In this document: positions 1,560-21,076 of the stretch, piece after piece
Position numbering within the stretch: the first letter of the stretch is position 1
How the letters are laid out: each line of letters opens with the position of its first letter
Virus record (IMG/VR): IMGVR_UViG_3300046004_001894
Location: 1-21,089 of that record
From: a virus
Direction: 5' to 3' (one strand)
Length of the DNA stretch: 21,089 nt
Translations under genes and position numbers: made by a program
Notes under the pieces: generated by a model
Database searches by the model: none
Seen by the model: only the letters and a program-made list of their open reading frames with translations
Told to the model about the DNA's origin: nothing

Positions 1560-4500
1560 TTAGGTTGTCATTGCGATGCACTGAGCATCAGACGGTGCAG
1601 TCTGGAATAGTACTAACTTTTGGAACCTTCCATTAAGAAATTCTGACCCGCCTGTTCGACGGCCACCAATTACTCCGGACGTAACCGCTGGAGTTCCGAT
1701 AGCTGCGGATTCCGCTCCAATCGCCACCCCATTTAGGAACATGCGGTAAGTTCCAGAAGCACTACGACGCAGAATTCCTTTGAACACGGTTCCTGTAAGT
1801 ACAGACCCCGTGCCAGAGTTCGGTAGTGTTGGTGTAACCCCTCCAACTGTAACAGATGGATACACTTGTCCAGTTGCAATTGTTTGAACAAACATCCTTT
1901 CATTGTCTGAACCATTATGCAGCTCAAATAGACGATTAGTGCCAATTACAGCATCTCTACTACATTGGAAGAACACTGCTGCAGGAGAGAAAGGTATAGG
2001 AAGGCTAGTAACGCCTGCCTCTCGTGTAACGGCAGCCGAGGTAGTTGGGATATATGAAGTTGGGTAATCTCCAACCTCTAATTGACCGCCCCATAAGTAT
2101 AAGCCACTAGTACCATCACCAGAGTAGGAATAGGAGGTACCACTTACTAAGTAAACAGACCCTACTCCGCCAGTTGTTACAATCCCAGTAAAAGTAATAC
2201 TGCAACGATACCAACCATTAGCAAACTGTTGGATGCTATATCTTGCTGGTGCAGGCTCTCCTGAAATAGAGAAGGTTGATCCTGCACCAGTTAGATCAAA
2301 ACCATAGCCCTTACCATCAGCATATGACGAATAAAGCATTAGCTTTGAGCGCTCACCCGCCTTTGCAAAAACGGATAGAGTATAGGTTTGCACAGAGGTT
2401 GTAGTTGGGGGGCAAGCTATATAGTGCCCAGAGCCACCAGCACTTTCAACTAGCTTATCAGCTGTTGTGGTTCCATCTGGTGCCGCGACAGCATTTGCTG
2501 TAATCGTAGAGCCGGCTTTAACCCATCCAGCATCCGCCATTTCTTCCGATCGTACTAGTAGATTGGTGCTGCCTTGCTCTATTAAGACCCCATTGTCAGT
2601 ACGACGTAAAGTATCTGCGGCAAAGGCCGAAACAACACCCGCCACACTAGATGCAGTACCTACTCCAGCGCGAACGTGGGATAGAGATACAGCATTAGGA
2701 GAGGTTCCGGATAGTAAACCTTTTCGATAGTAAGGTGTTTGAAATAGTATTTCAACACCAGTATCTCTGAATCCGGTATCGCCAGGAATACCATATAGGG
2801 CACCACGATCAAGAGCGGTGACCAGTTCTGCTGGACGTAAAGCTTCCGATAAAGTAGGAGGACTAGGATAATTAGATCGTACTTGAAGTTGATTATTATT
2901 GCTAGTGCCTGACACCGCTACGATAGAACGTACAAAGCCGTTTAATTGATATAGGCCGGTAGGGTAGCAACCTATTCCAAGCGCGGTGCTTGTGGTAATG
3001 GTTGCACTAACATCTGCAACACCGAGTATGCCATTTTTAGCGAAACGAATATCGTTTGTACCCACATTTAGGGCTGCTTTAAATGGTGTATTAACTGAAA
3101 CAGTTCCAGCGACTTCTGGAGCGCCTTGCGCAGCAAGAGCAGTCTCAACATACGCCCCAATACCACCAGATCTATTACTGATAACTATCATGTCATCGCC
3201 GCCACGTAGACCTGCGAGAACTCGATTACCTGAGTTGATGGCGCTGCTTGCTTCAGTGAATTCAGCCTCTACAAAGACAGAGCGTGCTCCAGAGAATGTA
3301 GCAGATAGTAGAGCAATATCAGCAGCTCGTGTAACGGATGCTGTAGTAGTTGGTATGTATGAAGTAAGGAAATCTCCAGTCTCTATTTGAGCACCCCAAA
3401 TAATGGCCGAGCCCGTAGATGTTACGCTGTCACTTCCTAAACCATAAGGTGCAGGAGCAGGATAGACGCTGAAGTTAAAAGAAGTATTTCCGGTATTATT
3501 ATTAGCCAGGCTAACTGACAGACGCCAGTAGCCGCCCTCGCTAGTTACTTTAGTATTAGCTACAGAAGTGATCGCTCCCGTATCCGTATTTAGTCTTGGG
3601 CTTACAGATACTGGAGTACCTCCAGTGTATCCGATGTTAATACCAAAAGTAGGCGCCGTGCCCCCAGTGGTTTTCTTTACATAAATAGATGCCGTACGCA
3701 TTAAACTATCGTTGGGCACAGTAACAGTCTGAGCCGCACCTTGATAAGTGCCAGCAGAGTTATCCGTTAACGTATCCGCAGTATGGGTACCATCCGGAGC
3801 TACTGCGGAGTTCGCGGTAACATTCTTTGTGGTTATCGCGGTCCAAGACGCGTTGTCGAATTCTTGCGATCGCAATAATAGGTTTGTACGAGCTTCCTCA
3901 ATCAGGATGCCTCTGTCAGTAATTCTGGGTACGTTAGCAGCAAAGGTGAGTAAAGACCCATTTGCCATAGGTGCTGTGGCAGTGCCTGCTCTAGTGTAAG
4001 TAAAGCCGGATAAAGATAAAGGTGCCGAAGCGACGTTAATACCTTTACGATAGTAGTTAGATGTAAATTCTAACTCAACTCCAGAATTCATGAATGCTAA
4101 AGCATTAGTAGGGTCTACTATATCTACTAGATTTGGACGCACTAAAGCCTCGTAACCTGGTACAGTGGTGTTTGTTACTGCGCCAGCAGGCTGAGTTAGT
4201 GCAATAGCTTGTGTAGGGGTCACTCCATACGTACTAAAGTTGTAGGATTTTATATACCCATTTAACAGGTCTGAATCTACAAAATTGCGTCCGAAGGCAG
4301 TAGTAGTGAATTTCGTTAGCTGTGTAGTTGAGATTGACTCAATTGCGGCACCATCAACATAGAATGCGAACACTCCGGCAATTCTTGTTATAGCCCACTT
4401 TACACTCACAGCCCCTGGCTTGCTTACTCCCATGAAAGCAGCTACTAAGCTACCATCCTTATAAATTAGCGGGTACACAACCCCATTAGAGTTTCTAGTT

Positions 4501-16893: not shown

Positions 16894-16957
16894 TAAGCCC
16901 TTGAAATCGTTAGGTTTTTGGGGCCCCCGCAAATTTCCTAGCAATATCAGTGACTTA
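16894..16957 (+). repeat. 64-bp GGGGCCCC palindromic element, copy 1
   Basis: The left arm TAAGCCCTTGAAATCGTTAGG pairs with CCTAGCAATATCAGTGACTTA at 15 of 21 positions, with GGGGCCCCC near the centre. It lies directly after the stop codon of the 82-aa gene. No U-tract follows, so it is not a standard intrinsic terminator. Confidence 0.85.
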
Positions 16958-16976
16958 CACTGTAACATTATGTGAT

Positions 16977-17004
16977 TGGACAGCCCGACTAATTCTGATA
17001 TAAT
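16977..17004 (+). promoter_or_regulatory. One-way cassette promoter of the 68-aa gene
   Basis: TGGACA and a perfect TATAAT are separated by 16 bp, with an added TG extended -10. The upstream box TGTAACATTATGTGATTG is identical at the next cassette (17291-17308) and nearly so at 20617, suggesting a shared activator site or phage-specific promoter class. Confidence 0.78.
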
Positions 17005-17028
17005 AGTGGCAACAGAAGAGAGAAGATC

Positions 17029-17235
17029 ATGCCCTACGCCACTCACGCCGACGTTATCTCCGCCGCCCGCGCAGCCGCGCTGACGAAAGGTGTGACTGCC
17101 TCTGGCATGTATTCCACTGGTGGAGGTGAACAGGTCACGCAATACCACACCCCGTTTGGTTTGGTATCCATCCAGACCAATACGTGGGGTGAGGTTGAGG
17201 AATGCTCGATCTTGCGCTTTGAGGTAACCCCTTAA
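17029..17235 (+). CDS. Hypothetical protein (68 aa)
   Basis: No family is recognised. The protein has 68 residues: an Ala-rich N-terminal helix (ADVISAARAAALTKGVT) followed by a beta-rich part with Gly and Thr (GMYSTGGGEQVTQYHT, GLVSIQTNTWGEV). There is no membrane segment. AGAGAAG is placed 4 nt before the ATG and the leader is only about 18 nt. It is a single-gene unit with its own promoter, and its 3' end runs into the next palindromic element, whose left arm starts within the last codons. Confidence 0.75.
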   Translation: MPYATHADVISAARAAALTKGVTASGMYSTGGGEQVTQYHTPFGLVSIQTNTWGEVEECSILRFEVTP

Positions 17236-17288
17236 ATTATAACGCAAAAAGCGGGGGGCCCCAAAAGCTGAACAATATCAATGACTTA
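17225..17288 (+). repeat. 64-bp GGGGCCCC palindromic element, copy 2
   Basis: This copy starts with TAACCCCTTAAATTATAACG and ends AACAATATCAATGACTTA, with GGGGGGCCCC at 17253-17262. The left arm overlaps the last three codons and stop of the 68-aa gene, so the element has been placed tightly against, or into, the gene end. Confidence 0.8.
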
Positions 17289-17307
17289 CACTGTAACATT
17301 ATGTGAT

Positions 17308-17335
17308 TGGACATTCACATGGGTTCTGGTATTAT
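17308..17335 (+). promoter_or_regulatory. One-way cassette promoter of the five-gene micro-operon
   Basis: TGGACA and TATTAT separated by 16 bp, preceded by the same TGTAACATTATGTGATTG box as at the 68-aa gene. The ATG of the first gene is 6 nt after the -10 box, so the transcript is predicted to be leaderless. Confidence 0.75.
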
Positions 17336-17341
17336 ATAGGA

Positions 17342-17482
17342 ATGAAAACGCAGATGAGCCACCAAGAAGCCTACTACCGCCGCCACGGCTTTTACGACCA
17401 CATGGCTAAAGCCCCGACAGCGGAAGAAGCAATCCAACACGCACTCAACAGGATCAACAGCGCTTTCGGAAAGAAAAGCTAA
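17342..17482 (+). CDS. Hypothetical basic protein (46 aa), leaderless start
   Basis: The frame starts ATG AAA ACG CAG and encodes 46 residues: MKTQMSHQEAYYRRHGFYDH, then a helix (TAEEAIQHALNRINSAF) and a basic end (GKKS). It is rich in His, Arg and Tyr. The ATG is 6 nt after the -10 box and no Shine-Dalgarno fits between, so leaderless translation is predicted; a start at the ATG four codons later is possible. The stop overlaps the next start (TAATG). No family is recognised. Confidence 0.65.
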   Translation: MKTQMSHQEAYYRRHGFYDHMAKAPTAEEAIQHALNRINSAFGKKS

Positions 17483-17646
17483 TGGCTAATCCCGCATTCA
17501 TGGAAGGCATCCACGCCGCCAAAAAGGGTAAATCCATTAAGGATAACCCCTATCGCGATGGTTTCTGGTATGTTAAAGATGAAGTGAGCGCGAACCTCTG
17601 GGATCTTGGCTTTACTTTTCAAATGGAGAAACTCAGCAATGTTTGA
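17482..17646 (+). CDS. Small protein with possible RMF/CrpP-like signature (54 aa)
   Basis: The 54-residue product reads AFMEGIHAAKKGKSIKDNPY, then RDGFW and NLWDLGF. The spacing of Gly, Ala, Gly, Asn-Pro-Tyr and a later Trp followed by Gly resembles the small ribosome modulation factor/CrpP family, whose members bind ribosomes. This is a pattern match by eye only. The gene is coupled to its upstream neighbour by TAATG and overlaps the next gene by 8 nt. If correct, it would be a phage factor acting on host translation, in line with the leaderless genes nearby. Confidence 0.6.
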   Translation: MANPAFMEGIHAAKKGKSIKDNPYRDGFWYVKDEVSANLWDLGFTFQMEKLSNV

Positions 17647-17725
17647 GATCATTCACCTTGCTTTAGCCCAAGCCTATTATGTCGCTTTCCTGTGCCTCGA
17701 GCACGTGTATCTCTGGAATAGTTAA
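17639..17725 (+). CDS. Microprotein (28 aa), hydrophobic
   Basis: This ORF overlaps the previous gene by 8 nt and ends in TAATG with the next start. It encodes MFEIIHLALAQAYYVAFLCL and a short end with EHVYLWNS. The middle is hydrophobic enough for one membrane helix. No family is recognised. Confidence comes from the unbroken chain of overlapping starts and stops and not from conservation. Confidence 0.5.
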   Translation: MFEIIHLALAQAYYVAFLCLEHVYLWNS

Positions 17726-17787
17726 TGCGTATCCTAGCGGCAATCATCTTCGGCATCGCCTTCATCTTTATTCTAAGGAAAATGTAA
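17725..17787 (+). CDS. Microprotein (20 aa), single membrane helix
   Basis: The ORF encodes 20 residues, MRILAAIIFGIAFIFILRKM: Arg, a continuous hydrophobic helix, then Arg-Lys. It looks like a minimal one-pass membrane peptide. The start is TAATG-coupled and the stop is again TAATG. It is very short, so it could be a coupling peptide or a true membrane-acting peptide. Confidence 0.45.
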   Translation: MRILAAIIFGIAFIFILRKM

Positions 17788-17888
17788 TGGAAAAAGCTGC
17801 TATTATAGCTTTGTGGACGCTTATCGCCGTGTGGATTATTAGCTTCATTATGATGATCATTTCTTTTGTCTGGATGTTTATAGCTTGA
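17787..17888 (+). CDS. Microprotein (33 aa), single membrane helix
   Basis: The ORF encodes 33 residues, mainly one long hydrophobic segment (AIIALWTLIAVWIISFIMMI, then ISFVWMFIA) after MEKA. It would be a single-pass membrane peptide. A longer in-frame ORF beginning at 17679 would run across two other coupled genes and is rejected. It ends with GCT TGA, at which the CTTGACA found before several palindromic elements starts. Confidence 0.55.
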   Translation: MEKAAIIALWTLIAVWIISFIMMIISFVWMFIA

Positions 17889-17894
17889 CAAAGC

Positions 17895-17958
17895 TAAGCC
17901 CTTGAAATCGTTGGGTTTTTGGGGCCCCTCCAAAAAAGCCTTATATATCAAGGACTTA
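17895..17958 (+). repeat. 64-bp GGGGCCCC palindromic element, copy 3
   Basis: Left arm TAAGCCCTTGAAATCGTTGGG; right end TATATCAAGGACTTA; exact GGGGCCCC at 17921-17928. A small hairpin, TAGCTT-GACA-AAGCTA, lies just upstream over the stop codon of the 33-aa gene. Confidence 0.85.
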
Positions 17959-17982
17959 CACAGAGCCTCAAAATTCGCGCCG

Positions 17983-18011
17983 ATTTTACAGTATCAGGCG
18001 CAGCCTGTCAA
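17983..18011 (-). promoter_or_regulatory. Minus-strand cassette promoter (antisense direction)
   Basis: On the minus strand, perfect TTGACA and TAAAAT are separated by 17 bp. Initiation would be near 17976 and the RNA would run through palindromic element 3 and antisense to the microprotein operon. No minus-strand ORF follows. Confidence 0.7.
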
Positions 18012-18022
18012 TACCGTGCAAC

Positions 18023-18038
18023 ATTACAAATTTGTAAT
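18023..18038. promoter_or_regulatory. Shared operator palindrome, copy 1 (ATTACAAATTTGTAAT)
   Basis: A perfect 16-bp palindrome between the divergent cassette promoters. Its centre is about 53.5 bp upstream of the plus-strand start and about 54.5 bp upstream of the minus-strand start, a position typical of an activator or of a site controlling both directions. Confidence 0.75.
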
Positions 18039-18048
18039 GAAAAAGGCC

Positions 18049-18077
18049 TTGCAAAAGGCGTTGCGAAGGACTATATT
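18049..18077 (+). promoter_or_regulatory. Plus-strand cassette promoter of the four-gene micro-operon
   Basis: TTGCAA and TATATT separated by 17 bp. The ATG of the first gene is 6 nt after the -10 box. Confidence 0.72.
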
Positions 18078-18083
18078 CTAAGA

Positions 18084-18176
18084 ATGGAAACGCAAGAGAA
18101 AATCGTCCGCATCGGTAACGCCCTCTACGGGGAAGTTAACGGCATGATCGTCCGCTTTATCGGGATGGTCCTCTAA
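18084..18176 (+). CDS. Microprotein (30 aa), leaderless start
   Basis: The frame starts ATG GAA ACG CAA and encodes METQEKIVRIGNALYGEV, then NGMIVRFIGMVL, alternating strands that could form a small beta-hairpin pair. The ATG is at the predicted transcription start, so translation would be leaderless. A longer in-frame ORF from 17919 would include the promoter and the palindromes and is rejected. The stop overlaps the next start (TAATG). No family is recognised. Confidence 0.6.
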   Translation: METQEKIVRIGNALYGEVNGMIVRFIGMVL

Positions 18177-18319
18177 TGGTCTTCTATTATTTCAATAAGC
18201 ACGGTGCCAAGCGGTCCGCTGATTATTTCATGGGCATGATGCAAGATGCTATGCCCTCACATATCAACGTTGTTTACAGCGTTGCCACCGACGAAATCGT
18301 CTGGGAGCGTCGCGCATGA
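18176..18319 (+). CDS. Hypothetical protein (47 aa)
   Basis: The TAATG-coupled ORF encodes 47 residues: MVFYYFNKHGAKRSADYFMG, a Met-rich helix, and INVVYSVATDEIVWERRA. The pattern is beta strand, helix, beta hairpin, a plausible tiny fold. The stop overlaps the next start (ATGA). The function is unknown. Confidence 0.6.
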   Translation: MVFYYFNKHGAKRSADYFMGMMQDAMPSHINVVYSVATDEIVWERRA

Positions 18320-18405
18320 GAATCATTCGCGCAATCTTCAATCCGTCCAGCCTGATCGCTCTAGGCCTTCTGGCTTTCTCCCTTTATCTTCTGGTGAATT
18401 TCTAA
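18316..18405 (+). CDS. Microprotein (29 aa), single membrane helix
   Basis: The ORF encodes MRIIRAIFNPSSLIALGLLA and then FSLYLLVNF: a basic N-terminus and one hydrophobic helix to the end. Coupled by ATGA upstream and TAATG downstream. It would insert N-terminus inside. The first residues resemble those of the 20-aa peptide at 17725 (MRI and a short hydrophobic helix), hinting at related membrane peptides. Confidence 0.5.
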   Translation: MRIIRAIFNPSSLIALGLLAFSLYLLVNF

Positions 18406-18626
18406 TGCACGTCATGCCTTATCGCGTGGTTCCTGAGTTGAACCAATTCAACCTTATGGTGTTTCTCCTGAATTGGGGGCGCGGCTGCTTTGCAGGCGAA
18501 ACGTTAGGGGCGGCGTTTGCTTATGCATTTGAATATGAGGCGGACAACCACAACCGCTTCATTAATGAAACCGACGTTATCGTGACCCTGCGTCACATTG
18601 AAAATCTGATGAAGGAAATCACTTGA
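18405..18626 (+). CDS. Hypothetical protein (73 aa)
   Basis: The TAATG-coupled ORF encodes 73 residues starting MHVMPYRVVPELNQFNLMVF. It continues with a Gly-rich aromatic part (NWGRGCFAGETLGAAFAYAF), then an acidic helix and TDVIVTLRHIENLMKEIT. It is soluble or loosely membrane-associated. An ATG in the same frame at 18246 would overlap two upstream genes and is not preferred. It ends ACT TGA, forming the CTTGACA that precedes element 4. Confidence 0.65.
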   Translation: MHVMPYRVVPELNQFNLMVFLLNWGRGCFAGETLGAAFAYAFEYEADNHNRFINETDVIVTLRHIENLMKEIT

Positions 18627-18630
18627 CAGC

Positions 18631-18694
18631 TAAGCCCTTGAAATCGTTAGATTTTTGGGGCCCCCTGAAATTGTTGGGCAATTTCAGGCACTTA
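18631..18694 (+). repeat. 64-bp GGGGCCCC palindromic element, copy 4
   Basis: Left arm TAAGCCCTTGAAATCGTTAG; right end AATTTCAGGCACTTA; GGGGCCCCC at 18657-18665. Unlike the other copies, the right half contains its own perfect 10-bp hairpin (CCTGAAATTG, loop TTGGG, CAATTTCAGG, 18664-18688). Confidence 0.85.
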
Positions 18695-18696
18695 CA

Positions 18697-18719
18697 GACT
18701 TATCGAAAAACGATAAGTC
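18697..18719. other. Perfect 9-bp hairpin at the predicted 5' end of an antisense RNA
   Basis: GACTTATCG, loop AAAAA, CGATAAGTC. It occupies the first nucleotides of the transcript predicted from the minus-strand promoter at 18726-18754 and would cap its 5' end. Together with the hairpin inside element 4 it gives that RNA two strong stem-loops. Confidence 0.6.
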
Positions 18720-18725
18720 GCGCCG

Positions 18726-18754
18726 ATTTTAGCATGAAATCAGAAGCGTGTCAA
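18726..18754 (-). promoter_or_regulatory. Minus-strand cassette promoter (antisense direction)
   Basis: Perfect TTGACA and TAAAAT with a 17-bp spacer on the minus strand; initiation near 18719. Box sequences and spacing match the minus-strand promoter at 17983-18011, while the spacer sequence differs. Confidence 0.7.
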
Positions 18755-18765
18755 CCACGTGCAAC

Positions 18766-18781
18766 ATTACAAATTTGTAAT
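18766..18781. promoter_or_regulatory. Shared operator palindrome, copy 2 (ATTACAAATTTGTAAT)
   Basis: Identical to the copy at 18023-18038 and at the same distances: 10 bp from the plus-strand -35 box and the same offset from the minus-strand -35 box. It is perfectly palindromic. Confidence 0.75.
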
Positions 18782-18791
18782 GAAAAAGACC

Positions 18792-18820
18792 TTGCGTAAA
18801 GGCTAGAGAGGGCCTATATT
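18792..18820 (+). promoter_or_regulatory. Plus-strand cassette promoter of the 80-aa gene operon
   Basis: TTGCGT and TATATT separated by 17 bp; the ATG follows 6 nt after the -10 box. Confidence 0.7.
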
Positions 18821-18826
18821 TAACTT

Positions 18827-19069
18827 ATGAAAACGAACACAGACGACCTGATCGCCGCCTTCCTCGCCAAGGGCGGCAAAATCCAAACCGTCGCGCAGGG
18901 CGAAAGCCTCGGCCTGACGGACCGTCAATGGTACCGTAAGGGCACGGATGCCGGTCTGACTTCAACCGTTTCACGCGAGCAAGCGTCGGAACAACGTATG
19001 GAACAAGTGCGCGAGGCTGCCCACATGGGCGGTGTTGTCGCTGTCAATGAGGTGCTTGGCTATGACTAA
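18827..19069 (+). CDS. Hypothetical protein (80 aa), leaderless start
   Basis: The frame starts ATG AAA ACG AAC and encodes an 80-residue soluble protein: a helix (DDLIAAFLAKGGKIQTV), then SLGLTDRQWYRKG, then a polar helix (SREQASEQRMEQVREAA). The N-terminal IAAFLAKGGKI pattern recurs in small phage proteins of unknown role. The ATG is at the predicted transcription start, with no Shine-Dalgarno in the 6-nt gap. The end overlaps the next gene by 8 nt. It heads a four-gene operon. Confidence 0.72.
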   Translation: MKTNTDDLIAAFLAKGGKIQTVAQGESLGLTDRQWYRKGTDAGLTSTVSREQASEQRMEQVREAAHMGGVVAVNEVLGYD

Positions 19070-19211
19070 AATCATCGGGTTCATCGGGCTGGCGTTTACG
19101 CCGCTTATCGTGGTTGCCTCCTATCAGGCGGACTCATTCTGGATGTTTTGCATTGCCGCTTGGGTTGGGCTGGCAAGCGGCGTTCTGGCCTTCACTAAGG
19201 AAACGAAATGA
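19062..19211 (+). CDS. Small membrane protein (49 aa), two hydrophobic segments
   Basis: The ORF encodes 49 residues with two hydrophobic stretches (IIGFIGLAFTPLIVVASY and FWMFCIAAWVGLASGVLAF) and a basic end (TKETK). It is probably a two-pass inner-membrane protein. It overlaps the upstream gene by 8 nt and shares ATGA with the downstream gene. No family is recognised; a small membrane-active or superinfection-exclusion protein is conceivable. Confidence 0.62.
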   Translation: MTKIIGFIGLAFTPLIVVASYQADSFWMFCIAAWVGLASGVLAFTKETK

Positions 19212-19402
19212 GGGACGATAGCTGGCTAGCGATTGCGGCGAGACTCGTAATCGCTATTATCCTACTCATTCTTGCGACATTTCTGTCACAATGTAATAAC
19301 ACTAGCAAGCGTGACCGCTGCGAACAATCGGGCGGCCAATTCATTCAAAACGACTACGACTCGGCTTTGTCGAGTTGTGTCCTTCCTAGAAGGTGGAACT
19401 AA
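19208..19402 (+). CDS. Small membrane-anchored or exported protein (64 aa), Cys-rich
   Basis: The N-terminus is MRDDSWLAIAARL followed by a strongly hydrophobic segment (VIAIILLILATFLSQC). After it comes a polar domain with Cys residues (KRDRCEQSGG, SALSSCVLP). The hydrophobic segment may be a signal anchor. The LSQC sequence is lipobox-like, but Gln before Cys is unusual, so lipidation is uncertain. The outer Cys pair could form a disulfide in the periplasm. It is coupled by ATGA upstream and TAATG downstream. A role at the envelope is inferred from topology. Confidence 0.65.
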   Translation: MRDDSWLAIAARLVIAIILLILATFLSQCNNTSKRDRCEQSGGQFIQNDYDSALSSCVLPRRWN

Positions 19403-19701
19403 TGCCCTGCAGAACTGACTATTACGAAGACGACGCGGAAGACAAAACCATCTGTGAGCTGGAGGAGCTGCTTTGCAGTGCCTGTCGTAGCCTGACCCGT
19501 ATGGGCTACGATTTTGCAGAAAATCCGGCACTTGACGGATGGTGGCACGAGCACGTGCAACAAGATAACGAGCGTCGCCGTCGCGAAGCAATCGCGGAAA
19601 TGGAAGGTAAGGTTTTTGACAGCCTTATGGAGAAGAAGCCGTCAGAAATGACTGACGATGAAAAAGGATTTTTCTTTGCTTACGCACGGAAAAATGCTTG
19701 A
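19402..19701 (+). CDS. Hypothetical phage protein with MPCRTDY start (99 aa)
   Basis: This is an acidic, helical 99-residue protein. The N-terminus MPCRTDYYEDD resembles a recurring N-terminal motif (MPCR followed by D-Y) of many small phage proteins of unknown role. The middle is ELEELLCSACRSLTRMGYDF with Cys-x2-Cys, followed by LDGWWHEHVQQDNERRRREA and a charged end. I start at the ATG coupled to the previous stop (TAATG), not at an upstream GTG. The stop TGA lies in GCTTGACA at the start of the next cassette. Confidence 0.75.
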   Translation: MPCRTDYYEDDAEDKTICELEELLCSACRSLTRMGYDFAENPALDGWWHEHVQQDNERRRREAIAEMEGKVFDSLMEKKPSEMTDDEKGFFFAYARKNA

Positions 19702-19708
19702 CACCGGC

Positions 19709-19736
19709 CTGGGATTGGTGTAAAGGCCAATCCCAG
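19709..19736 (+). other. Stem-loop with TGTAAAGG loop, copy 1
   Basis: A perfect 10-bp stem (CTGGGATTGG, CCAATCCCAG) with the 8-nt loop TGTAAAGG, just after the stop codon. The same loop occurs on different stems at 20512-20537 and 20985-21010. An alternative pairing GGCCT with AGGCC (19706-19710, 19724-19728) would compete with it. Confidence 0.7.
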
Positions 19737-19737
19737 C

Positions 19738-19800
19738 TAACTCCTTGAATTATAACGCTTTTTTGGAGGGGCCCAAAAATCCAATGAAATCAATGACTTA
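19738..19800 (+). repeat. GGGGCCCC palindromic element, copy 5 (63 bp)
   Basis: Left arm TAACTCCTTGAATTATAACG; right end ATGAAATCAATGACTTA; centre GGGGCCC (one C fewer than in most copies). Confidence 0.82.
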
Positions 19801-19811
19801 GGCCCCCTGGC

Positions 19812-19840
19812 TCTTTAGCACAACGCCAAGGCTTTGTCAA
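19812..19840 (-). promoter_or_regulatory. Minus-strand cassette promoter (antisense direction)
   Basis: Perfect TTGACA with a weaker TAAAGA, 17-bp spacer, on the minus strand. The position relative to the operator palindrome is the same as in the two other divergent cassettes. Confidence 0.6.
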
Positions 19841-19851
19841 CCCAGCATAAC

Positions 19852-19867
19852 ATTACAAATTTGTAAC
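19852..19867. promoter_or_regulatory. Shared operator palindrome, copy 3
   Basis: ATTACAAATTTGTAAC keeps 14 bp of perfect palindrome. It directly abuts the plus-strand -35 box, so it is 10 bp (one helical turn) closer to the plus-strand start than in copies 1 and 2, while its distance to the minus-strand -35 box is unchanged. Confidence 0.7.
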
Positions 19868-19896
19868 TTTACAAAATCACCCCAAAAGCCTACATT
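19868..19896 (+). promoter_or_regulatory. Plus-strand cassette promoter of the 59-aa gene
   Basis: TTTACA and TACATT separated by 17 bp. Initiation near 19903 leaves a leader of about 22 nt with AAGGA before the ATG at 19926. The ATG immediately after the -10 box (19897) lies upstream of the start and cannot be used. Confidence 0.65.
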
Positions 19897-19925
19897 ATGA
19901 AGGTCAAGAACAAGGAACGACACAA

Positions 19926-20105
19926 ATGCCTAACGAAGCCCGCATCCCGATCTGGGAAGCCCACCTCGCCGCTGCGCTCGGCTATCTCGCCTGCGTTGAC
20001 ACTGACTATCCGGCGGCTGATCTCGCTCTGCGTGAGAAAATCCGCGCGGGCTGGGATGAAGAAGTCAAAATCGCTCGGGAATTTATCGAGTATCACTCGA
20101 AATAG
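19926..20105 (+). CDS. Hypothetical protein (59 aa)
   Basis: The protein has 59 residues and is helical and acidic: RIPIWEAHLAAALGYLACV, then YPAADLALREKIRAGW and EEVKIAREFIEYHSK. AAGGA is 9 nt before the ATG. Codon use (many codons ending in C) fits the neighbouring plus-strand genes, whereas the competing frame from 19897 reads as a low-quality basic sequence and is rejected. It is a single-gene unit with no recognised family. It could be a small helical bundle binding a host protein. Confidence 0.68.
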   Translation: MPNEARIPIWEAHLAAALGYLACVDTDYPAADLALREKIRAGWDEEVKIAREFIEYHSK

Positions 20106-20108
20106 GTG

Positions 20109-20137
20109 TTGACTTCCTAAGTCAAAAGAACTACATT
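20109..20137 (+). promoter_or_regulatory. Promoter of the 106-aa gene with palindrome over -35
   Basis: TTGACT and TACATT with a 17-bp spacer. The -35 box is part of a perfect inverted repeat TTGACTT-CCT-AAGTCAA (20109-20125), a likely operator for a repressor. No GGGGCCCC element precedes it. The leader begins near 20144 with a small hairpin (GGGCGG, CCGCCC, 20147-20163). Confidence 0.65.
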
Positions 20138-20182
20138 AGACAAATCGGGCGGATGGGCCGCCCACTCAAAAAGGAAAATACC

Positions 20183-20503
20183 ATGGCTAAGCAACCGACC
20201 TCCAAGTATACCGCCGCAATGGAACAAGCCATTCGCGACGAACCCGTCCTTAATCAGGCCGTGGCCAATCGCCTCGCGGGTGAATTCGGTCCGGCCTTCA
20301 CCGGCCGCATGGTGATCGCGAAGATCAACTCCATGAAGCTGCCGTATCAGAAGAAGGTCGCTGTTACGAAGACCGGCGAGCCGGTTGAGCGTAAAGAACT
20401 TCTGGTTGCGGAGATCGCCAAGTTTGTCGAGGGCAATCTCGACGGTCTGGATAAGGCCCCGAAGCCCGCGCTTCAGGCCATCCGGGACGCCTTCGCGGCC
20501 TAA
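20183..20503 (+). CDS. Conserved-type phage protein, possibly DNA-binding (106 aa)
   Basis: The protein has 106 residues. The region QAVANRLAGEFGPAFTGRMVIAKI looks like a helix-turn-helix, followed by KLPYQKKV, KTGEPVERKELLVAEIAKFV and LDGLDKAPKPALQAIRDAF. I recognise the overall order (a basic R-x-V-I-A-K helix, a Lys-rich segment, then L-x-G-L-x-K-A) from small phage proteins of unknown function, which supports a nucleic-acid-binding role without proving it. I use the ATG at 20183 with AAGGA upstream; an earlier in-frame ATG at 20153 lies in the leader hairpin. It is the best plus-strand candidate for the regulator acting on the repeated operators. Confidence 0.75.
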   Translation: MAKQPTSKYTAAMEQAIRDEPVLNQAVANRLAGEFGPAFTGRMVIAKINSMKLPYQKKVAVTKTGEPVERKELLVAEIAKFVEGNLDGLDKAPKPALQAIRDAFAA

Positions 20504-20511
20504 AAAGTGCT

Positions 20512-20537
20512 TGACTGTGGTGTAAAAGCCACAGTCA
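20512..20537 (+). other. Stem-loop with TGTAAAAG loop, copy 2
   Basis: A perfect 9-bp stem (TGACTGTGG, CCACAGTCA) with loop TGTAAAAG, just after the stop of the 106-aa gene. The stem sequence is unrelated to copies 1 and 3 except for the closing GG/CC. Confidence 0.7.
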
Positions 20538-20549
20538 CTCGCTCCGCCC

Positions 20550-20613
20550 TAAGTCCTTGATTTCATTGAGGATTTGGGGCCCCCCGAAATTTGCTAGCGA
20601 AATCAATGACTTA
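20550..20613 (+). repeat. 64-bp GGGGCCCC palindromic element, copy 6
   Basis: The most symmetric arms: TAAGTCCTTGATTTC on the left and GAAATCAATGACTTA on the right, differing by one base when reverse-complemented. GGGGCCCCCC at 20576-20585. Confidence 0.87.
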
Positions 20614-20632
20614 CGCTGTAACAATACGTGAT

Positions 20633-20660
20633 TAGACATAGCCAAGAAAACTGCTATTAT
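20633..20660 (+). promoter_or_regulatory. One-way cassette promoter of the 89-aa gene
   Basis: TAGACA and TATTAT separated by 16 bp, preceded by TGTAACAATACGTGATTA, a variant of the box upstream of the promoters at 16977 and 17308. The leader is about 33 nt with GGAGAG. Confidence 0.7.
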
Positions 20661-20699
20661 AAGCCATCACCGGGCAAGCAAGCCCATTGGAGAGACAAA

Positions 20700-20969
20700 A
20701 TGCGTGAACAACTCGGCGTTATCATTTCGGCCAAATACAACCTCATTAGCGATAGCGCGAATGACGGTGAAGGCCAGCAAGGCAATATCGTGGCCGATTT
20801 CGGCGTGAACAAGGTTCCGACGCTGGAAGAGGTCCAAGCCTCGCTGGACAACGCGATTAAGGTTTTCAACGACGCTCTGGGCGTTGACGATACACGCCTG
20901 ATCAACATGGGTGATTTCGGTTTCGCCGAACCGCGTTCGATGCAATGGCCTCCGGTAGCTAACGAATAA
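20700..20969 (+). CDS. Hypothetical protein (89 aa)
   Basis: The protein has 89 residues, acidic and soluble: a beta-rich start (REQLGVIISAKYNLIS), NIVADFGVNKVPTLEEV, a helix (QASLDNAIKVFNDAL) and a C-terminal part with DTRLINMGDFGFAEPRSM. GGAGAG lies 5 nt before the ATG. It is a single-gene unit between two cassettes. No family is recognised. Sequence quality and codon use support a real gene. Confidence 0.75.
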   Translation: MREQLGVIISAKYNLISDSANDGEGQQGNIVADFGVNKVPTLEEVQASLDNAIKVFNDALGVDDTRLINMGDFGFAEPRSMQWPPVANE

Positions 20970-20984
20970 GACTTGACAAAGGCT

Positions 20985-21010
20985 TGGGGCTGGTGTAAAG
21001 GCCAGCCCCA
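20985..21010 (+). other. Stem-loop with TGTAAAGG loop, copy 3
   Basis: A perfect 9-bp stem (TGGGGCTGG, CCAGCCCCA) with loop TGTAAAGG, preceded by CTTGACA as in the other copies. Confidence 0.7.
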
Positions 21011-21012
21011 CC

Positions 21013-21076
21013 TAACTCTTTGAAAACAAACGCTTTTTTGGAGGGGCCCCAAAAGCCCAACGATTTCAATGACTTA
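21013..21076 (+). repeat. 64-bp GGGGCCCC palindromic element, copy 7
   Basis: Left arm TAACTCTTTGAAAACAAACG; right end CCCAACGATTTCAATGACTTA; exact GGGGCCCC at 21043-21050. The right arm, reverse-complemented, nearly equals the left arm of copy 3, showing that the two halves come from one sequence. The bases that follow (GCAGGCCCTGGCT) resemble those after copy 5, so a divergent promoter pair probably lies just beyond the window. Confidence 0.83.

Follow-up and report, generated by a model that had tools for sequence, protein, structure and literature searches.

The attP region of phage lambda carries an IHF site of the form AAAAAA-GCATTGCT-TATCAA-TTTG-TTG, known as the H' site, and the repeated intergenic RIB/RIP elements (BIME-1) of enterobacteria, located at operon ends, bind IHF at one central site between REP units. 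The Correia/NEMIS elements of Neisseria are intergenic, MITE-like repeats of about 155 bp that contain one IHF site and promoters (PMC2229807). The 3' bent region of IS5 activates glpFK by means of an IHF site and A-tracts that lie upstream of the promoter and raise transcription, with helical phase being of importance (PMC2753651), and the PeSL cassettes of T4-type phages are described as a promoter combined with a terminator stem-loop (Arbiol 2010, Comeau 2014). The elements analyzed here resemble each of these systems in part. They have the A6-N8-TATCAA-N4-TTR layout of the lambda attP site, but they fuse two such sites head to head into a fixed 64-bp unit that is present in multiple copies and without an integrase. 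As with RIB/RIP, they are intergenic repeats at operon ends with (predicted) IHF sites, but these sites are two, terminal and inverted, a GC box lies between them, and no REP was identified. They share with Correia/NEMIS the combination of an intergenic repeat, an IHF site and promoters, although they are 64 bp long and have two predicted sites rather than one; IS5-glpFK provides a precedent for activation by IHF and A-tracts beside a promoter, although there a single IHF site lies inside an insertion sequence. The likeness to the T4-type cassettes claimed in the original prediction is sustained in two respects, since a promoter lies 19 nt from three of the elements and small-gene cassettes are shuffled, but it fails for the stem-loop terminator: both are repeated intergenic modules adjoining promoters and tied to small-gene shuffling, whereas what our elements conserve is a predicted double DNA-protein site, with the hairpin unsupported.

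The window, that is, the whole 21,089-nucleotide stretch of DNA that was analyzed, covers part of the genome of a T5-like tailed phage. On its minus strand it carries terminase, portal, fused protease-capsid and tail genes, whose closest annotated relatives are found in T5-like Vibrio and enterobacterial phages, and from 16.5 kb to the end it carries small genes on the plus strand. Among these, a small early ORF (18827-19069, plus strand) matches the SutA RNA-polymerase-binding domain (PF20661) and may encode a phage RNAP modifier, and a conserved early protein of about 105 amino acids without a family match is encoded at 20153-20503, as well as at 1804-2124 and 4231-4554 of L109, and is duplicated in the relative G002.

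The presence of seven elements of 63-64 bp between positions 16894 and 21076 was confirmed. W1 (16894-16957), W3 (17895-17958), W4 (18631-18694) and W6 (20550-20613) are oriented one way (plus), and W2 (17225-17288), W5 (19738-19800, 63 bp) and W7 (21013-21076) the opposite way (minus), W7 being essentially W3 inverted; in W1 the core lies left of centre. The GGGGCCC motif occurs 13 times in the window when both strands are counted (7 places), whereas 1.0 would be expected and none of 100 shuffles gave more than 5. When a profile built from the seven copies was searched, as had been proposed, 10 further full copies were recovered, 5 in G001 (a 22-kb contig whose terL is 96% identical to that of the window phage) and 5, plus a half-copy, in G002 (an 87-kb contig). 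Both contigs share synteny or homology with the window, all their copies sit in the equivalent 4-5 kb zone, and the other 83 kb of G002 gave no profile match above noise. Length and core are kept at syntenic places in the relatives, and the elements behave as the modular separators that had been proposed. The claim that they follow stop codons needs correction in that W2 overlaps the stop of its gene (ORF 17029-17235) and copies 5-7 lie 36-46 nt downstream of the stop codon. Strong short hairpins, e.g. CTGGGATTGG-TGTAAAGG-CCAATCCCAG, lie between the stop codon and W5, W6 and W7 (19709-19736, 20512-20537 and 20983-21010) and lack a plus-strand T-run. The elements start with TAAG, TAAC or TAAA and finish with CTTA, GTTA or CATA, and an integron attC identity, which calls for RYYYAAC ... 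GTTRRRY ends, was rejected; a tRNA identity was likewise discarded after a tRNA scan. Searches of Rfam and of a phage nucleotide database gave no match for the elements, and a literature search on the motif letters returned nothing relevant.

The family sample comprised 17 elements and 34 arms (7 elements from the window and 5 each from G001 and G002), which are related copies within one family rather than independent samples; the three contigs are incomplete and together perhaps amount to less than a full genome. All 34 arms align without gaps and read, from the centre outwards, 4-6 A (or A/T), 8 variable nucleotides, WWTCAR, N4 and TTA. The published IHF consensus is WATCARNNNNTTR, with WWTCARSnnnTTA as the form found in vivo in E. 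coli (PMC8407004). The WATCARNNNNTTR core is perfect in 17 of the 34 arms and has one mismatch in 16 more, WWTCARN4TTA fits 32 of them, and both arms of W6 are perfect WATCARN4TTR. Moreover, 32/34 arms have A at -26 and -25, and the 8-nt spacer equals that of lambda H'. The right arm of W3, AAAAAA-GCCTTATA-TATCAA-GGAC-TTA, is close to H', and together with that of its G001 counterpart A4 it has 18-19 of 27 bases in common with it; the arms as a whole reach a mean of 13.6 and a best value of 19, as compared with a mean of 8.1 and a maximum of 15 for shuffled arms. The combination of an A-tract and an IHF core gave 28 matches in the element zone of the window, a count that allows a variable spacer and includes some sites repeatedly, and none elsewhere in the window, and G002 outside its zone remained at shuffle level (7 matches versus 5.7). 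Whichever bacterium is the host of this phage, its possession of IHF is assumed here; the phage contigs themselves encode no IHF/HU homologue.

The elements also have a fixed geometry. Fifteen of the 17 are exactly 64 bp long, which is about two IHF footprints (30-35 bp each), and the A-tracts of the two inverted arms face the GGGGCCCC box, so that the WWTCAA-N4-TTA boxes form the element ends. The A and T tracts are about 11 GC-rich bases apart, approximately one helical turn. The description of the elements as palindromes is correct for the inverted arms but was overstated, because the 8-bp core is offset by exactly 2 bp from the midpoint, toward one arm or the other, in every 64-mer. Every element therefore has a polarity, and its direction is identical at the syntenic positions of G001. 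Exact two-gap patterns that include the GC box match only the lineage of the window phage or nothing, which indicates that GGGGCCCC is lineage-specific. The role of this box could lie in stiffening or phasing the junction, or in binding another factor.

Three of the elements are closely followed by plus-strand sigma-70-type promoters, each located 19 nt beyond the element: TGGACA-N16-TATAAT with a TG before the -10 box after W1 (16977-17004), TGGACA-N16-TATTAT after W2 (17308-17335) and TAGACA-N16-TATTAT after W6 (20633-20660). In contrast, the likely promoters of W3, W4 and W5 lie 66-97 nt downstream (TTGCAA/TATATT at 18049-18077, a weak TTGCGT/TATATT about 97 nt from W4, and TTTACA/TACATT at 19868-19896), behind the conserved palindrome ATTACAAATTTGTAAT or its start, which counts against a promoter-proximal reading; the downstream side of W7 is beyond the contig end. 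The ATTACAAATTTGTAAT copies (approximately 18020-18036, 18758-18774 and 19851-19866) are operator-like and directly precede the promoter-like hexamers, the promoters of W1, W2 and W6 bearing TGTAACAnTAnGTGATT instead. Strong leftward promoter-like pairs, TTGACA-N17-TAAAAT, are also present on the minus strand at 18011-17983 and 18754-18726, pointing back into W3 and W4.

The comparison of gene content with the relatives bore out the suggestion that the elements are recombination points for gene shuffling. The W1-W2 unit, which includes a 68-aa ORF (17029-17235, plus strand), is without a counterpart in G001 and G002, and in G001 its flanks are joined at one element (3600-3663) whose upstream side corresponds to that of W1 (96.8% over 219 bp) and whose downstream side corresponds to that of W2 (92.6% over 217 bp). 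The window phage and its closest relative differ in the presence of one element-promoter-gene cassette, and its two breakpoints both coincide with elements. The junction falls within a stretch common to W1 and W2 (the right arm and the -35 region of the promoter), which is where homologous recombination between copies would place it. The G001 element at the position of W4 differs in its right arm and in the neighbouring 47 bp. When the elements were compared with MITEs, inverted ends were seen, and a clean empty site was not found among the three contigs.

Head-to-head arm pairs were also searched beyond the family with a generic pattern limited to the arm ends on both sides of a gap of 26-40 bp. 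It retrieved 47 viral and 11 bacterial stretches, and such pairs occur in 46 other viral contigs and 11 bacterial contigs, whereas a scrambled palindromic control gave none in viral contigs. The outside pairs group into about 25 lineages besides that of the window, all lack GGGGCCCC, and none lies within an ORF longer than 100 aa; because the search fixed NGACTTA, the conservation of those letters beyond the family is partly by construction. When promoters were scored in a strict but simple way, a strong sigma-70 promoter lay within 25 nt of the pair in 7 of the 25 lineages, as compared with 0.6 expected, and the remaining 18 lacked one. The promoter starts 4-5 nt past the outer TTA in L136, L147, L150, L163 (twice) and L165, and 16-18 nt past it in L146, L169 and L176. 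One pair-bearing phage encodes a T4-like DNA polymerase, and a 305-kb jumbo phage (IMGVR_UViG_3300033498_000048; L155/L181-L196) contains about 37 head-to-head WATCAANNNNTTA pairs, as compared with 3 for the reversed control. In this jumbo phage the ends of the pairs are extended as CAAGTGCTAAC...GTTAGCACTTG, the pairs are often arranged in tandem about every 95 bp, and their lengths are 50-54 or 60-64, with none of 55-59. Pair lengths in general avoid 55-57 bp, although many of the contigs are near-duplicates, and this avoidance is suggestive of helical phasing. The pair of L139/L148 encloses a tRNA-3'-end-like core close to an integrase gene, which is a typical location for IHF sites. In several Marinomonas chromosomes (L125, L128-L130, L132, L133 and L135) a paired element lies beside a conserved phosphomannomutase-family gene, and in an Acidovorax plasmid (L116, 8533-8639 and 10001-10151) iteron-like repeats near par/rep genes each include an IHF-like arm, TAAGTCATTGATTTCATTGG. 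The pair was absent, bar one marginal match, from 79 terL-related T5-like loci (746 kb), and the generic pattern found nothing in phage T5, lambda or the Sphingobium phage Lacusarx, while phage C48C1 gave a single match at chance level; Lacusarx and the Klebsiella phage Soft have single arm-like sites.

Inverted arms placed after stop codons could also belong to an RNA-level element, such as a bidirectional terminator or an RNase-processing stem-loop at operon ends, and W4 and W6 indeed fold strongly (z below -4). Nevertheless, only 2-3 of the seven window copies fold well, W2, W5 and W7 being near background, and the arms pair no better within an element (17.5 pairs) than between elements (18.7 pairs; permutation p = 0.985 for an excess). 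A hairpin of 27 pairs shows 6 pairs with compensatory change as compared with 13.3 in shuffles, all 500 of which reach or exceed 6, and the flips in orientation are likewise at odds with such an element. No predicted terminator-like site overlaps any element, in agreement with the original prediction that these are not standard terminators (a GC stem followed by a T-run). The transcript-end and RNA-processing roles raised at the same time are consequently very improbable, and the conserved entity is predicted to be a DNA-protein site, an IHF consensus with its A-tract present twice in inverted orientation.

The gain and loss of a cassette at elements that occur in both orientations, together with the similar arms that flank the integrase core in L148, would suit site-specific recombination sites (att- or attC-like) in which GGGGCCCC is the palindromic crossover core. 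We consider this equally remote, since no tyrosine or serine recombinase or Y1 transposase was found in the three contigs (which may not be a full genome), the R''/R' boxes of attC are absent, and the exchange tracts reach into flanking sequence that is shared, as they would in ordinary homologous recombination. Somewhat less improbable, but still unlikely, is that the paired sites serve a different protein that prefers WWTCAANGACTTA, whether encoded by the phage or a further nucleoid protein of the host, and act as operator or insulator. IHF has no need of the G-A-C that the arms keep within N4 (24-31 of 34 arms per position), so that another protein of similar preference may bind. The extended motif also recurs in other phages, although this is partly forced by the search pattern. 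Against it, both an A-tract spaced as in H' and the WW-TCA-R...TTA core are hallmarks of IHF, the motif also occurs at an attP-like site, in plasmid iterons and at a transposon end, which are known IHF settings, and N4 is far more variable in the 305-kb phage, a more independent sample, though also recruited by pattern.

Taken together, these results suggest that the elements are probably promoter-proximal DNA-bending modules loaded by host IHF, which also supply the homology by which cassettes are shuffled. That IHF occupies and bends the elements, that it stimulates the promoters and that it does so early are inferred from the sequence. Host IHF, already present at infection, would load both arms soon after entry of the DNA, and its binding to both halves would introduce two sharp opposed bends and generate a compact fold. 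Lying after one small-gene unit and ahead of the next promoter, this fold would shape the DNA just upstream of early promoters, thereby aiding their use and insulating neighbouring units. Because many copies have long identical stretches in common, homologous recombination between them would add or remove element-promoter-gene cassettes.

More tentatively, at somewhat less than even confidence, the pairs may represent a widespread, previously undescribed phage regulatory module in which a pair of inverted IHF sites, whose distance is restricted by the helix to about 52-54 or 58-65 bp, would fold into a nucleoprotein knot with a double bend and so connect strong early promoters to the architecture of the host nucleoid. 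T5-like, T4-like and jumbo phages would all have come to possess such a module, which in the T5-like lineage of the window would have gained the polar GGGGCCCC box and become a cassette-shuffling joint. The case also cautions that an intergenic inverted repeat in a phage is not necessarily an RNA hairpin. If this proposal is true, lytic phages of several unrelated groups would use a host DNA-bending protein as a modular part of their promoters, with a signature that could be searched for in any phage genome; nucleoid proteins would be linked to early phage gene expression, and phages would have a concrete joint for the swapping of accessory genes.
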